This document shows, in pieces, positions 49,482-56,140 of a stretch of DNA of 64,000 nt. Location of the stretch: positions 103,711 through 167,710 of the forward strand of contig JABLXG010000003.1 in NCBI GenBank assembly GCA_013178165.1. The letters run 5' to 3'. Each line of letters opens with the position of its first letter. The first letter of the stretch is position 1. A program made the translations under genes and the position numbers. The notes under the pieces are model-generated. The model did no database searches. It saw nothing but the letters and a program-made list of their open reading frames with translations, and was not told where the DNA came from. The DNA is from Anaerolineae bacterium. GTDB taxonomy: Bacteria > Chloroflexota > Anaerolineae > Aggregatilineales > Ch27.

Positions 49482-52400
49482 TCAGCTACACAGCGGCTCT
49501 ATCCGGTATTGCTCGCGCTCCTCGCAGGTGAAATCGCGGATGTAACGATTCGCCTTTACCCAACTCAGTAAGTCCTCGAGTGACCACTCGCTGACCTGCC
49601 ATTCCCGCAGTGTACCGTCCGCAGACGCTGAATAGAGTCGCCCGGCATCCGGGCTGAATGCGACATCGAAAATCCAGCCCATGTGGCCCGTGTAGCGGTG
49701 AACCACCTGGGCCCCTGCATAGTCCCACACAATGACGCTGCCATCCGATGATCCGGACGCCATCAGGCGGCCATCCGCGCTGAGATCAAGGCTCCACACC
49801 GGCCCATCATGCCCCACAAACTGCCTGATCCTCTCACCGGTCTGGCTGTCCCATTCCGTGATGCTGCCATCATTGCTGGCGGTGATGATCGTGGTTTCGT
49901 CGGGGCCATAGAGGATACTCAGCACACACGCCGGCTGCTCCGGATAGGATCGGATTGCCTGGCCGGAGGCGATATCCCAGCGTGTGGCGTCCTCAAAATA
50001 GCACGACCCGCTTATCGCCTGCGTTCCATCCCTGCTAAACGCGATCGAGGTGATGTCTTCCGAGGTATCAAACTGCCTGACGATCTCCCAGGTCTCCAGG
50101 TCCAGGAGAAACAGCTCACCACCCAGGTCATCCTCGCTGAAGTCCTGCGTGCCAACGAGCGCGTACCTCTCATCCGGGCTGAAAGCCGTACTTCGATAGG
50201 GAAACTTACGCCCGTTCATTTCCTGGCTCGCTTCTCCTGAATCGAGATCCCACAACGTGAGACGAGAGGCCATCACCTGGCTATCCGTTTCCAGGGCTGC
50301 TACCAGGGCATACCGCCCACCGGGGTCAAGGGCAATGGCGCCCGGCGCAACGGTCAACCCCTGACCTTCAATCAGGCGAGCCAAAGCCGCAGATGATGTT
50401 TCGAATACCCACAGATTGCCTGCGGACGTGCCTTCGCCAGCCACCAGCCGGCTACCATCCGGACTGACTTCAAGTGCAAAGATCGGTGCTTCTGCGCTAT
50501 AGCGATGCACTTCTTCCTGCACAGCAATGTTCCATATCCGGACCGTCCCATCGCTGGAGGCGGTTGCCGCCAGCCCGCCATCCGGACTGAATGCCACATC
50601 CCAGATGCGCTGCGTATGCCCGGTCAGCAGTTGATCCTGCCACCAAACTTCGGTGTCCCACAGGTAAAGCTCCGTGCCAATCGGGAACAGCACCGTGCGG
50701 CCGTTCGGGCTAACCGCGATGCCACCACCATAGGCGCCGATCATCCGCTGCCGGAGCTCAACGCCGGTCTGCACATCCCACAGGCGGAAGGAAAGGTCCG
50801 AACTGTTGGAGAGAATCGCCGCACCGTCCGACACAAAAGCCACGCCCAAAACACCCGAGCTATGCCCCTCAAACCGCCGCACAACCTGACCGAAGAGCGG
50901 GGAAGCCGGCTCAATATCCCAGATGAGAATGGTCCGATCATCCGATGCGGTCGCCGCGCGCATGCCATCCGGGCTGACCGCCACCATGTTGATACATGCC
51001 GTATGGCCTTCCAACCGGCTGAGGATTTGGCCGCTGGCTGCATCCCACATGATCACAGCGCCGTCTTCGGACGCAGACAGGATGGCCTGCCCGCCGGGCA
51101 CAAAGATCACGTCGTTGATCGCCCCGGAATGACTTTCCAGGCGGCGGAGTTCGCGGCCTGCCGCCACATCCCACACGCTCAGCGTCCCGTCAGCCGAGGC
51201 GGACACTGCCCTGATCACGCCTTGCTGATCGGGTGCGAAAGCAACGGCGTTGATCCAACCGGTATGGCCCTCCCAACGATTCAGCCTGTCACCGGAGTCC
51301 AGATTCCACTGGATCAGTTCGCCACGATCACAGTCACCGCCTTCAGAAACGTTGTGGGAACACCCCGCTGACAGGAGTGTGTGCCCATCAGGGCTGAAGG
51401 CCACCGCCGTGACCTCACCCTGATGTCCGGCCAGTACCATGCGGGTTCCGGGAGCAAACGCAACATTGGCCAGCGTATTACGCACATCCGCCGGTGGCTC
51501 GTCGATGGCAGCCGCCTCCAGGGCCAACGCCAGCGCCAGGTCCCCCCTACCCACCTCGGATTCCTCGCGCGCATTGGCGGCCAGCACCAGGCTGTGATTG
51601 ACCGTAGCCTCGCGCTCAGCCTTCTTACGCGAGTCAGTAGCTTCGCGCTCCTTGGCAAAGGCAAATACGGAGAGGACAAGCGCAATCACCAGGAACCCCG
51701 CCAGGCCCGCCACCAGGAAGCGGAGCCAGTGCGTTGCCCGGCGCTGGGCAGCTGCGGCCTGCCGGGCCGATTCTGCGGCCTCCCTGGCCAGCGCCAGCTC
51801 ACGTGCCTGCCGCTCGCGTTCGGTCTCGTCGTGCTGGTGCTGCGCCGTGACGCTGACCTCTAGAAACTCGCGTTCTTCCGGGGTCAGGGCCAGCGGAGCC
51901 TGGGCCAGCCAGCTACTGAACTGTTCCAGGCGAGCGCCATGCAACAGGTAACTGGGGTCACGTCCGGCGCTCAACCAGTCGGCGGCGGCCGTCGCAAGCC
52001 AACGCTGCTGCCGGATATCATGGCGGCTCTCATCCAGCCAGGCCTGCAGCCGGCGCCACTCGCGCAGGATGGCCTCGTGCGCAACTTCCACCACCGGTGT
52101 GCGCGTAGCCGGATCGTGATCCAGCGACAGCAGCCGGTATCCGGTGTAGGTATCGATCAGGGACTCCATCAGATCAGGGTCGACAGCGATTGCCAGTAAC
52201 TCCGATCGCGACGCGCGGCGGCGGGTGTCTTCCGCGCCTTCGCCCAGCGTTACCAGCCGCAGGAACATCTGGCGCGCAGCCTCACGCCCCGCTTCATCGA
52301 GTTCGTCATAGAGCGCGTCAGCGCGGCGGGCCAGCGCGCCGGTAATCCTGCCGATTTGCTCGTAGGCGCGATGGGTCAAAGAACACTGCTCGCGGTTTTC

Positions 52401-54278
52401 AAACAATTCAGTCAGGGCATACTGCAACAACGGAAGCGCGCCGGGCTGGTAGTGAATCTCCGAAACAATCGTCGCGATTAACCCTTCCTCAAACATCACC
52501 CCCACCTGCTGGGCGGGCTTGCCAATCGCCCGCTGGAGTTCGTCCGCTGAGAGTGGCAGGATCGTTTCCATCCGACTTCGCACCATCTCGCCAAATTCCG
52601 GATAGTGCAGCGGTTTGTCATAGAAGTCCGCCCGCAGGGTGATCAGCACGCGTACCCGGCTGCGGGGTGCGGTCACAGCGGTGTACAGCAGGTCCAGGAA
52701 ATGCTGACGCGCCGCCTCATCCTCAACCAGGGTGAAGACTTCCTCAAACTGATCGACAATCACCAGGAGTTCACTGTCATCATCCGGCAGGATCAACTGC
52801 GCCGCGCGCAGCAGGCCGCGCGGATCGCGGGTCAGTGGCTCGTGCAGGTTACGCGCCTGGTCCGCCGCTACGCGCATCAGCGCGACCTCCAATTCGTCCA
52901 GCGGGTACGCTCCGGGCAGCATATCGACGATGAACCAGCGCTCCGATCCTGGCAGTTCGCCGCGCCACAGGGCCGGGATCAGCCCGGCGCGTACAACACT
53001 GGATTTGCCACTGCCGCTTGGCCCAACTACTGCAAGGAAGCGTGCAAACTCAACATGCTCTGTCATTCTCGCCACCAGGGCGGCTGTCAGTTTCTCACGT
53101 CCGAAGAAATCACGTGTATCCGCCACCTGAAAGGGTCGCAGCCCTTTGTATGGGTTCTCCGGCTGAAACAGAAGACTGGTAGCCGTTCCCTCTCCGGTGA
53201 GAACAGGCAGGTCGAAGTCGCTCTCACCATCAACGACCAGCCGCAATTCGCGCGCCCGGACGATGCACTGCATCCGGCTGCGTACCCCAAGCTTGCGAAA
53301 AATCTTGTTGATGTACCATTTGACGGTGGTGATCTCCACAAAGAGGTCCTGCGCAATGTCCCGGTTCGATGCCCCGGCGATCATACGCTGCAGGATCTCC
53401 TGCTCGCGGCGTGTCAGCCGTTCGACGATGTCATCCCCTACCATCACCCGGTCAAGGCGGGCTGCCTCGCGAAACGCGGCCGCCATCCCCAGCGCATCGC
53501 CGTAGCGGCGAGCCGGATCCTTGGCGGTTGCCTTCTGTATAACGGCGTTAACGTCGTCACGCACGCTATCATCCAGAGTGGGGATCACTGGCAGCGGGTC
53601 ATTGATGTGCCTGTACAGACGCTCCACCGAGGTTAAGCCAGGGAAAGGGTGCTCACCGGCCAGGACTTCGTAGAGCACAACCCCCAGGCTGTAAATGTCC
53701 GTGCGTGGCGTGACTGGTTCGCCGCGCGCCTGCTCAGGCGAGATATAGTCCAAGGAACCGACGATCACATCTGCGCTGGTCAGTCCCATCTCTGAGCGCT
53801 CAATATCTTTGGCAATGCCGAAATCGGCCAGGTATGCGTTGCCATCCTCATCCAGCAGGATGTTGCCCGGCTTCAGGTCGCGGTGAATCACGCCGCTGCG
53901 GTGGGCTACCGCCAGCGCCGCCGCCACCTGGTCCAGCAGCAGCGCCGTGGCGGCAAGCGCATAGGGGCCATCGTGCAGCGCATCCGCCAGGCTGCCGCCC
54001 CGGAAGTAACGCATGACCAGGTAAGCGCCTTCCGGGTCGCGCCAATAATCGTACAGCGGCGCGATATGCATGTGCTCCAGCCGCGCGATCGTCTGCGCTT
54101 CGATCTCAAAACGCCGGATGAACTCCGGGTTGTTAGCCAACTGCGGCAGGATCGCCTTGATGACGACTTCCCGCCCGACCGTCACCTGGCAGGCCCGGTA
54201 GACCGCGCCAAAGCCGCCTGCTCCGATCAGCTCCTGCACTTTGTAGCCTTTGAGCACGGTGCCTGTCAGGTCGTTCAT
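49482..54278 (-). CDS. Ser/Thr kinase - LuxR HTH - nSTAND ATPase - membrane helix - WD40 fusion
   Basis: A 1598-residue protein. The kinase domain spans about 1-265 (LIGAGGFGAVYRACQ; VIHRDLKPGNILLDEDG; ADFGIAKD). A LuxR-type helix-turn-helix lies at about 280-345 (LTRREQEILQRMIAGASNRD; VKWYINKIFRKLGVRSR). An nSTAND-type ATPase begins near 374 (NPYKGLRPFQVADTRDFFGR) with Walker A GPSGSGKSSVVR near 418 and Walker B LLVIVDQFEEV. A charged helix precedes a membrane helix at about 848-874 (FLVAGLAGFLVIALVLSVFA). About 14 WD40 repeats (946-1590) would make two seven-blade propellers. The propellers probably lie outside and all other domains inside. The start at 54278 follows GGGAGG. The order suggests sensing by WD40, ATP-driven switching, and output by kinase and DNA binding. 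That output is inference. Confidence 0.92.
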   Translation of the reverse strand: MNDLTGTVLKGYKVQELIGAGGFGAVYRACQVTVGREVVIKAILPQLANNPEFIRRFEIEAQTIARLEHMHIAPLYDYWRDPEGAYLVMRYFRGGSLADALHDGPYALAATALLLDQVAAALAVAHRSGVIHRDLKPGNILLDEDGNAYLADFGIAKDIERSEMGLTSADVIVGSLDYISPEQARGEPVTPRTDIYSLGVVLYEVLAGEHPFPGLTSVERLYRHINDPLPVIPTLDDSVRDDVNAVIQKATAKDPARRYGDALGMAAAFREAARLDRVMVGDDIVERLTRREQEILQRMIAGASNRDIAQDLFVEITTVKWYINKIFRKLGVRSRMQCIVRARELRLVVDGESDFDLPVLTGEGTATSLLFQPENPYKGLRPFQVADTRDFFGREKLTAALVARMTEHVEFARFLAVVGPSGSGKSSVVRAGLIPALWRGELPGSERWFIVDMLPGAYPLDELEVALMRVAADQARNLHEPLTRDPRGLLRAAQLILPDDDSELLVIVDQFEEVFTLVEDEAARQHFLDLLYTAVTAPRSRVRVLITLRADFYDKPLHYPEFGEMVRSRMETILPLSADELQRAIGKPAQQVGVMFEEGLIATIVSEIHYQPGALPLLQYALTELFENREQCSLTHRAYEQIGRITGALARRADALYDELDEAGREAARQMFLRLVTLGEGAEDTRRRASRSELLAIAVDPDLMESLIDTYTGYRLLSLDHDPATRTPVVEVAHEAILREWRRLQAWLDESRHDIRQQRWLATAAADWLSAGRDPSYLLHGARLEQFSSWLAQAPLALTPEEREFLEVSVTAQHQHDETERERQARELALAREAAESARQAAAAQRRATHWLRFLVAGLAGFLVIALVLSVFAFAKEREATDSRKKAEREATVNHSLVLAANAREESEVGRGDLALALALEAAAIDEPPADVRNTLANVAFAPGTRMVLAGHQGEVTAVAFSPDGHTLLSAGCSHNVSEGGDCDRGELIQWNLDSGDRLNRWEGHTGWINAVAFAPDQQGVIRAVSASADGTLSVWDVAAGRELRRLESHSGAINDVIFVPGGQAILSASEDGAVIMWDAASGQILSRLEGHTACINMVAVSPDGMRAATASDDRTILIWDIEPASPLFGQVVRRFEGHSSGVLGVAFVSDGAAILSNSSDLSFRLWDVQTGVELRQRMIGAYGGGIAVSPNGRTVLFPIGTELYLWDTEVWWQDQLLTGHTQRIWDVAFSPDGGLAATASSDGTVRIWNIAVQEEVHRYSAEAPIFALEVSPDGSRLVAGEGTSAGNLWVFETSSAALARLIEGQGLTVAPGAIALDPGGRYALVAALETDSQVMASRLTLWDLDSGEASQEMNGRKFPYRSTAFSPDERYALVGTQDFSEDDLGGELFLLDLETWEIVRQFDTSEDITSIAFSRDGTQAISGSCYFEDATRWDIASGQAIRSYPEQPACVLSILYGPDETTIITASNDGSITEWDSQTGERIRQFVGHDGPVWSLDLSADGRLMASGSSDGSVIVWDYAGAQVVHRYTGHMGWIFDVAFSPDAGRLYSASADGTLREWQVSEWSLEDLLSWVKANRYIRDFTCEEREQYRIEPLCS

Positions 54279-54481
54279 GGCCGCCTCCCACTTACTTACA
54301 CTGTTTTCATTGTATGGGGAATTTCGGCCACAGGACGCGATTCCATACCTATTCACACCGGAATACCCAACCTTTTCCCATCTCCCGCGCAGGCAAGGGT
54401 CGGCATACGATGAAATCAGCCGTCATAGCCGCCATCATCACCACGCAGATGCACGGCCAGGATGTTGAGGAGGGTTACACC

Positions 54482-56140
54482 ATGTTCACCGTTCGAGCCA
54501 GAACAGTTGTCGTCGTTACGCTGATCGCTTGCCTGGTGATGCCCATGCTGATGGCCGTACCGTCAGCAGTGGCTCAGGAGGAGCCGCCCCGGATCGGTCT
54601 GCACCCCTTCGCGGAAGGTTACGCGCTACACGGCCCGTACTGGGTGGGCACGCGCCAGTTGGTGATCGAGCCGGAAGCCGAGCGTCCCCTTCCACTGACG
54701 GTCTGGTACCCTGCGCTGAATCCTGACGGCGCAGCGGAAGCCGTCACCTATACCTACCAGGCCAAATGGATTCCTGGGCCAGACTTCACCCCGACCGTCG
54801 CCGGACACGCCCTGCAGGATGCCGCGCCGGACATGGTCGGCGCCCCCTATCCACTGCTGGTATTCTCACCTGGCTGGGGAACGAATCCCGCATCGTATGC
54901 CAACCTGCTCGAACACACCGCCTCCTACGGGTTTGTCGTGCTGGCCCCCGATCATCCGGATCATGTGTATTTTATGCAGGAGAACCCCTTCAGCGAGGTG
55001 CCTATCAGCGCGATCGAGAACCCGCGGGACATCACCCGGGTCCTTGACTATGCCGCAAGCCTGACGGCTGACGGTGGCACATTCGCGGGACTGCTGGACC
55101 TGAAACGCGTGGCGGTAGCCGGTCACTCGAGCGGCGGTCAGACGGCACTCGCCGCCGGCGGCGCGCGCATCGACCTGCCCGCCTTTAATGCGCGCTGTGC
55201 CGCCGCCCGTGCTGCAGGCGATCCCTCTGCCTGGCTGTGCGATCCGTTTGAGCCGTTTGAGGCGGAAATGGCTGCACTGGCCGGGCTTGACGCGCAACCG
55301 GAAGGCCTGTGGCCTTCCTGGGGAGACCCACGCGTGGACGCGATCATCACCATGGCAGGCGACTCCTACCTGTTCGGGCCGGACGGGCTGGCCGCGATCA
55401 GTATTCCCCTGCTGGCGCTGGGCGGCTCCGCAGATACCGGCACCCCGGTGGACTGGGGCATTCGCCCGGCGTTTGATCACGCCTCCAGCACCCACAAAGC
55501 CCTGGTGCTCCTCGACGGCGCCGAGCACGGTATTGTCGCCAACAGCTGCGCGTCCTCGCCCTGGCTGGTGGACATCGGCCTGGGGTTCCAATGCGCCGAT
55601 GCGATCTGGGACAAACTGCGCGCCAATGACCTGGTCAACCATTTCGCAACGGCATTTTTGCTGGCAACATTGACCGGTGACACGGAGGCCGCCGCGGCGC
55701 TCGCGCCGGAGGCGGCGGTCTTCCCTGGAATCACCTACAGCGCGCAGGGATTCCCCATGCTGGATACCACGGTCGCCGCGACCGTAGCACGGGACGGCAC
55801 GCCGGTGCTCAGTGCGGAGGAAATCCTGGGGACCTGGCGCTGGCAGTTGGGCATGTTCCACTTCCAGTTCAGGGCTGATGGCACGTTCCGGGCCAACCAG
55901 TCCTACGAAGGGCTGGACGCGGATACCGTTGAGGATCTGGGGACCTATCAGGTGCAGAACGGCGTGCTGACGCTGACCAGCGGGGAGACAACCCGCTTCT
56001 GCCGCCCTGGCGAGGTGGGGGTGTATACCGTTTATCGGGCGGAAGGTGAGGATCAACTGGCGCTCGTGGTGCGCGAAGAGGCCTGCTATATGCGCGCACC
56101 TTCTTCCCCCCGCCCGCAGCTCTTCAACCAGGTCGACTGA
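54482..56140 (+). CDS. Secreted PAF-acetylhydrolase-like alpha/beta hydrolase with lipocalin-like tail
   Basis: A 552-residue protein with signal peptide (VVVTLIACLVMPMLMAVPSA, cleaved before QEE). The hydrolase part (about 40-420) resembles platelet-activating-factor acetylhydrolase or dienelactone hydrolase. It has LPLTVWYPALNPDG, PLLVFSPGWGTNPASYANLL, FVVLAPDHPDHVYFMQEN and the nucleophile elbow VAVAGHSSGGQTALAAGG (Ser near 215). A late LLDGAEHGIVANSC supplies the likely His. The C-terminal 110 residues (EEILGTWRWQLGMFHFQFRA; then LGTYQVQNGVLTLTSGE) look like a lipocalin-type beta barrel. Such a tail is uncommon on this hydrolase family. The ATG at 54482 follows GAGGAGGG. It is divergent from the giant kinase gene. 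Confidence 0.86.
   Translation: MFTVRARTVVVVTLIACLVMPMLMAVPSAVAQEEPPRIGLHPFAEGYALHGPYWVGTRQLVIEPEAERPLPLTVWYPALNPDGAAEAVTYTYQAKWIPGPDFTPTVAGHALQDAAPDMVGAPYPLLVFSPGWGTNPASYANLLEHTASYGFVVLAPDHPDHVYFMQENPFSEVPISAIENPRDITRVLDYAASLTADGGTFAGLLDLKRVAVAGHSSGGQTALAAGGARIDLPAFNARCAAARAAGDPSAWLCDPFEPFEAEMAALAGLDAQPEGLWPSWGDPRVDAIITMAGDSYLFGPDGLAAISIPLLALGGSADTGTPVDWGIRPAFDHASSTHKALVLLDGAEHGIVANSCASSPWLVDIGLGFQCADAIWDKLRANDLVNHFATAFLLATLTGDTEAAAALAPEAAVFPGITYSAQGFPMLDTTVAATVARDGTPVLSAEEILGTWRWQLGMFHFQFRADGTFRANQSYEGLDADTVEDLGTYQVQNGVLTLTSGETTRFCRPGEVGVYTVYRAEGEDQLALVVREEACYMRAPSSPRPQLFNQVD

Follow-up and report, generated by a model that had tools for sequence, protein, structure and literature searches.

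A transmembrane kinase, LuxR-type HTH, nSTAND and WD40 protein of Anaerolineae and a promoter box that accompanies its HTH

Could a protein held in the membrane act on DNA when its DNA-binding domain stands between a kinase and an ATPase, and if so, on which DNA? The question is raised by a gene of an Anaerolineae bacterium, studied here in a 64-kb stretch of one contig (the window, to which all positions refer; Table 1). The plus strand of the gene region is full of stops and the real reading frame lies on the minus strand, where a Shine-Dalgarno-like GGGAGG is found just 5′ of the ATG. An alternative N-terminal GTG start at 54356 was ruled out, because it would fall at the proximal box described below and upstream of the -10 element.

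Table 1. Features of the regulator gene and of the divergent promoter region in the window
Feature	Position	Strand	Evidence or remark
Whole gene, 1598 aa	49482..54278	-	ATG at 54278
Hanks-type Ser/Thr kinase, residues 12-260	53499..54245	-	Pfam PF00069, 1.4e-49
LuxR/GerE HTH, residues 286-344	53247..53423	-	PF00196, 4.3e-18; recognition helix TVKWYINKIF
nSTAND1 ATPase, residues 376-775	51954..53153	-	PF20703, 1.3e-118; Walker A GPSGSGKS, Walker B VIVDQFEE
Single transmembrane helix, residues 852-874	51657..51725	-	Hydropathy, AlphaFold helix; follows a long charged helix (800-850)
Two 7-bladed WD40 propellers, residues 944-1561, predicted extracytoplasmic	49596..51449	-	Pfam WD40, AlphaFold, Foldseek
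C-terminal Cys pair CEEREQYRIEPLC, residues 1585-1597	49488..49526	-	Recurs in relatives
-10 element TACAAT, regulator gene	54309..54314	-	Same spacing in relatives
Proximal box TGAATAGGTATGG, 10/13 positions	54343..54355	-	41 bp before the -10
Distal box GGGAAAAGGTTGG, exact consensus	54367..54379	-	24 bp upstream of the proximal box
-10 element TACGAT, divergent gene	54406..54411	+	26 bp from the distal box
Divergent gene, exported alpha/beta hydrolase (PAF-acetylhydrolase/chlorophyllase-like)	54482..56140	+	Pfam 4.3e-11

Domains and membrane topology

The first-pass annotation had described a single five-part fusion, and Pfam, the GerE match, hydropathy and AlphaFold all agree with it: a protein kinase is followed by a LuxR/GerE helix-turn-helix (HTH), an nSTAND1 ATPase, one transmembrane helix and 14 WD40 blades. 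Two AlphaFold models, of residues 1–848 (pLDDT 85.9) and of residues 838–1598 (pLDDT 88.8), together contain the kinase, a canonical four-helix HTH, the ATPase, a long helix next to the membrane and some 14 blades. The kinase is complete, as had been proposed, with the catalytic K-E-HRD-N-DFG residues intact in the alignment, and its fold is nearest to PknA/PknB in Foldseek.

The presence of a LuxR-type HTH at residues about 280–345 had been set beforehand as a point on which the description could fail. The isolated region (residues ~286–340) matched the GerE profile with 65 bits, against a cutoff of 23.5, and its modelled helices (290–300, 305–312, 316–330 and 335–344) are closest in the PDB to VpsT (3kln). 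Residues T318, R335 and R291 are invariant in the family and K/R320 occurs in 55/56 members, so the domain combines the four helices with conserved contact residues of the LuxR/GerE type, and its likely base-contact positions are conserved. The ATPase presents both the nSTAND1 profile and intact Walker A and B motifs, whose residues are invariant across the family except for one G-to-A and one S-to-T change; searching by sequence, no PDB relatives of nSTAND1 were found.

The membrane helix expected at residues 848–874 was located, with a hydrophobic core at 854–872 (mean Kyte-Doolittle 2.76). The prediction of 14 WD40 repeats in two propellers also stands, as AlphaFold places 55 strands within the propeller region and Foldseek ranks among its best matches the highly repetitive propeller 2ymu, the double 7-bladed propeller 1nr0 and Apaf-1 (3shf). 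A transmembrane helix follows the ATPase in all full-length relatives examined but one. In 67/67 relatives the segment that flanks the helix on the ATPase (inner) side has the higher net charge, and beyond the helix cysteine occurs at double the frequency; the C-terminal Cys pair occurs in about half of the full-length relatives (34/67). In addition, three Xre-kinase-nSTAND relatives (L179, L187 and L192) carry after the propellers a Bmp/PnrA-like substrate-binding domain, a type of domain that works outside the membrane. The charge bias, the cysteines and these domains point to an extracellular WD40 part as the most likely arrangement. Among relatives with longer tails, the pre-peptidase C-terminal domain gave a single match, below the cutoff.

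Distribution of the family and exchange of its parts

The same domain order was sought in other genomes and found. In 154 genomes of the order, nearly all relatives coming from metagenome-type assemblies, about 50 matches span the kinase, the HTH and the nSTAND domain. The genes collected comprise 56 distinct kinase-HTH-nSTAND genes (Anaerolineae, Chloroflexota), 24 kinase-nSTAND genes that lack the LuxR HTH and three genuine HTH-nSTAND genes that lack the kinase. The fusion is not a chance event, since 56 distinct genes share an identical order of parts. The architecture is also present in one further family of the class, beyond the order, and was not found outside the class among 400 genomes sampled from across the phylum. 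Named database records are nearly all from Chloroflexota, mostly Anaerolineae; one labelled Pleurocapsa is placed among them and is probably mislabelled. The architecture had been called unusual, which holds in relation to characterised systems but not within Anaerolineae, where it is recurrent. No literature on the kinase-LuxR HTH-nSTAND architecture was found.

The main kinase-HTH-nSTAND group forms a clade of 46 rows in the nSTAND tree (support 99) and of 47 rows, 46 of them with the HTH, in the kinase tree (support 96); a small second clade also exists, and L107/L108 join a second-clade kinase and HTH to a first-clade nSTAND. The closest relative of the window protein, L073, shares 67–86% in kinase, HTH and nSTAND and only about 30% in WD40, while L087 shares 55–69% in those domains and mostly 50–76% in WD40. 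As judged from these sequences, the sensor half is exchanged between relatives and the effector half is conserved.

The kinase catalytic residues are intact in 51/55 relatives. The other four (L097, L103, L157 and L169) have lost the catalytic HRD Asp, and thus kinase activity is not always needed; they lie on long branches. Pseudokinases might have been taken to prove that the protein acts mainly through its HTH, but these same four members also lack the upstream box, which weakens the argument.

Other DNA-binding modules are found on the same chassis. An Xre-type HTH (HTH_3/HTH_31) precedes the kinase in at least 10 kinase-nSTAND1-TM-WD40 relatives without the LuxR HTH (L175, L176, L177, L179, L180, L184–L186, L188 and L189), which may represent a parallel DNA-binding version with a different operator. 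A BTAD domain (SARP-type activator) replaces the kinase of an nSTAND1-WD40 protein (L111:5074-10149) and precedes the kinase in a kinase-nSTAND1-WD40 protein (L178:2-5305). Judging by the Xre and BTAD fusions, the membrane ATPase chassis has acquired DNA-binding or transcription-activator modules several times. A paralogue in the window's own genome (L110, G000:C1:450253-454596) is a kinase-nSTAND1-WD40 protein with neither HTH nor box. Four HTH-less kinase-nSTAND genes (L104, L110, L174 and L183) lie directly behind same-strand genes for zinc-ribbon (perhaps FHA-type) or Clp-N-like proteins, a context that differs from that of the HTH-bearing genes. The longer spacers of L104 and L173 contained no HTH remnant.

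An upstream box and the linked exported-protein genes

The regions upstream of the kinase-HTH-nSTAND genes share oligomers far above shuffled sequences, which resolve to the box GGRAAAAGKNNGG. It lies on the sense strand, 41–43 bp upstream of the -10, and is often doubled at a distance of 22–25 bp; gene starts, signal peptides and -10 elements were assigned by rule, that for signal peptides being home-made. In the window, the distal box (18.7 bits with the position weight matrix, PWM) is the top match of the whole 64 kb. Counting boxes before the first gene of the operon, the box was present in 34/50 kinase-HTH-nSTAND genes and in the window. It occurred upstream of 29/50 genes on the sense strand against 1/50 on the antisense strand, and at the training threshold in 30/51 upstream regions against about 1–4 in shuffles.

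The PWM was trained on kinase-HTH-nSTAND genes, and the other relatives are out-of-sample. Among these, it found the box in two of the three kinase-less HTH-nSTAND genes (L105 being the one without) and in none of 29 genes lacking the LuxR HTH (0/11 HTH-less, 0/12 Xre-type and 0/6 other nSTAND genes). The association with the LuxR HTH gave a Fisher p of 2.4e-8, an optimistic value because related genes are not independent. A training-free count agrees, with the exact box in 21/53 genes with the LuxR HTH and 0/29 without, and with a -10 distance that peaks at 41–43 bp.

A recognisable box is missing in 16/50 kinase-HTH-nSTAND relatives, all four pseudokinase members included. It is commoner where the HTH is near the family consensus (27/32 against 7/18), a comparison confounded with ancestry. 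Variant boxes, such as GGGGGAAANTKGGGGGG, were seen upstream of second-clade or diverged HTHs (L099–L101, L156, L098 and L159), which suggests that HTH and box co-vary. Palindromic (dyad) operators in the upstream regions gave nothing convincing above shuffles.

The window gene faces a divergent gene for a hydrolase with a signal-peptide-like N-terminus (MFTVRARTVVVVTLIACLVMPMLMAVPSAVAQ), homologues of which adjoin L080, L075 and L094; this gene is a probable target of the regulator. The upstream neighbour is apparently exported in 28/48 cases, against 26/151 among more distant neighbours. Divergent exported neighbours were found for 19/48 kinase-HTH-nSTAND and 3/3 HTH-nSTAND genes, and for 0/11 HTH-less genes. 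Of the 16 loci that combine a box with a divergent exported neighbour, 12, the window included, show a -10 of the divergent gene exactly 26/27 bp from the distal box, against 2/16 other loci, and the pattern occurs at most twice at any other single distance in the 60 bp upstream. The box pair therefore lies between two promoters, as in the window. Where an exported-protein gene leads the operon, the box stands before that gene (L082, L089, L090, L133 and L120). The partners vary, including alpha/beta hydrolases, beta-lactamase-fold, SnoaL-like and TPR proteins and lipoproteins, some of these names being our own reading of the sequences. No fixed conserved operon was found among the neighbours, and only the exported character recurs.

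A composite pattern (box, 28–29 bp and a -10) was searched in the 154 genomes with the reversed pattern as control. It gave 16 matches against 0; 14 lie before genes of this regulator family and two before exported-protein genes (L222:7825 and L221:1668). No regulator was found on the same contig stretch as these two, which are candidate distant targets. The window's own genome showed no wider regulon: its 10 exact boxes do not clearly exceed the 7 of the control, and the composite pattern gave no match there.

The first-pass annotation had proposed a membrane-tethered regulator with a DNA-binding output. This gains support from the intact LuxR HTH and, independently, from an operator-like box that tracks it. 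The kinase output and the ATP-driven assembly after ligand binding to WD40, which it also proposed, stay putative. What is new here, at the level of sequence, is a box common to genes bearing the LuxR HTH, with a fixed spacing to the -10.

Proposed mechanism and comparison with known systems

We propose, as the likely reading, a membrane-tethered MalT-like activator that senses outside the cell and binds tandem boxes at its own promoter and at that of the exported-protein gene. The starting points are the domains, the topology bias, the box with its fixed spacing, its co-occurrence with the HTH and the neighbour pattern. From these we infer that the protein binds DNA, activates instead of repressing, assembles and senses a ligand, and that phosphorylation takes part. 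The WD40 propellers would bind an extracellular ligand or partner, and the nSTAND1 ATPase on the inner side, released from autoinhibition, would self-assemble at the membrane in an ATP-dependent manner. The assembly would align several LuxR-type HTH heads, which would bind the tandem boxes just upstream of the promoters, so capturing the regulator's own promoter region. Binding would activate the regulator gene and the divergent or co-operonic exported-protein gene, and through positive feedback the receptor and the exported protein would increase in parallel. The kinase, which adjoins the HTH, is probably a modulator and would most likely tune assembly or DNA binding, with phosphorylation in cis or within the complex.

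LuxR-type HTH domains also dimerise, and an unlikely alternative is that the HTH is only an oligomerisation or docking module, the box being the operator of a different regulator and the kinase the real output. The dimerisation, the intact catalytic residues of most kinases and the existence of HTH-less kinase-nSTAND-WD40 siblings, some beside zinc-ribbon proteins, are consistent with it. A second regulator could indeed own the box while co-evolving with the kinase-HTH-nSTAND genes. However, the box is seen only with the LuxR HTH, kinase-less relatives included, and in none of the 29 genes without it; the likely base-contact positions are conserved, and some kinases have lost the catalytic Asp in proteins that retain the HTH motif.

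A repressor or negative autoregulator acting at the same boxes is less probable still. The position of the box alone leaves the regulatory sign unfixed, but the boxes keep a constant distance from the -10 that places them on the upstream side of the -35 zone, clear of the -10 and of the start and close to MalT-type activator sites (in Actinoplanes, the MalT site overlaps the -35; PMC7567727). An anti-invader STAND receptor with kinase and HTH as effector or adaptor domains is very improbable: STAND NTPases with WD40-type repeats and kinases have been discussed as such conflict systems (PMC7159879, PMC10907252) and the sensor half varies over a conserved effector half, but the sensor is predicted to lie on the outside, the gene is linked to a box of its own and to exported proteins of a metabolic type, PADLOC gave generic kinase matches, and no defence genes were seen at the loci examined.

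MalT and other STAND regulators are known in soluble form, and so are apoptosome-like receptors. The activator proposed here shares with MalT/LAL regulators a STAND NTPase and a LuxR-type HTH in one chain, but their HTH is C-terminal, after the sensor repeats, whereas that of the window protein precedes the NTPase; they are soluble and sense through cytoplasmic repeats, and the window protein has a transmembrane helix, a WD40 part predicted outside and an extra kinase. The MalT box, GGGGA(T/G)GAGG, is GG-flanked and asymmetric and occurs as direct repeats near the -35 (PMC7567727); boxes of this type, with a different sequence, also stand upstream of the genes of this family and track the HTH, which would bind them. 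With ToxR/CadC the protein shares, by prediction, a single transmembrane helix, a cytoplasmic DNA-binding head and a sensor outside, and it would likewise control linked genes; CadC clusters form on DNA upon activation (PMC6320335). Their N-terminal head is a winged helix (Trans_reg_C) instead of a GerE-type HTH, and only the window protein has an ATPase and a kinase between head and membrane.

The Eggerthella LuxR regulators with 10–12 transmembrane helices also have a membrane-bound LuxR HTH and activate neighbouring genes, but their N-terminal domain is polytopic and they lack STAND, kinase and WD40 (PMC9734109). PkwA-type WD40 kinases and the kinase-nSTAND1-WD40 proteins share kinase and WD40, and in the Anaerolineae forms also nSTAND1 and the transmembrane helix, but have neither LuxR HTH nor box. 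For the kinase, a parallel is offered by PknH, a Ser/Thr kinase that phosphorylates the LuxR-type HTH of DosR at T198/T205 and lowers its DNA binding (PMC12919924); there, two separate proteins without STAND are involved, and here one chain.

The switch known from MalT seems here to span the membrane: an Apaf-1-like WD40 sensor would lie outside, and the head that acts as transcription factor would lie inside together with the kinase. With an outside sensor, a switch, a DNA head and a matching promoter box, this single molecule seems to hold the whole circuit from signal to gene. We lean slightly towards regarding the family as a new class of one-chain transmembrane receptors, each copy tied by a bidirectional promoter with tandem boxes to one exported partner, in which copies exchange their sensor halves and keep the same DNA-binding half and box. 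With a predicted operator and target, a family that has no described function becomes open to direct tests, and the exported enzyme paired with each copy may allow a guess at its input.
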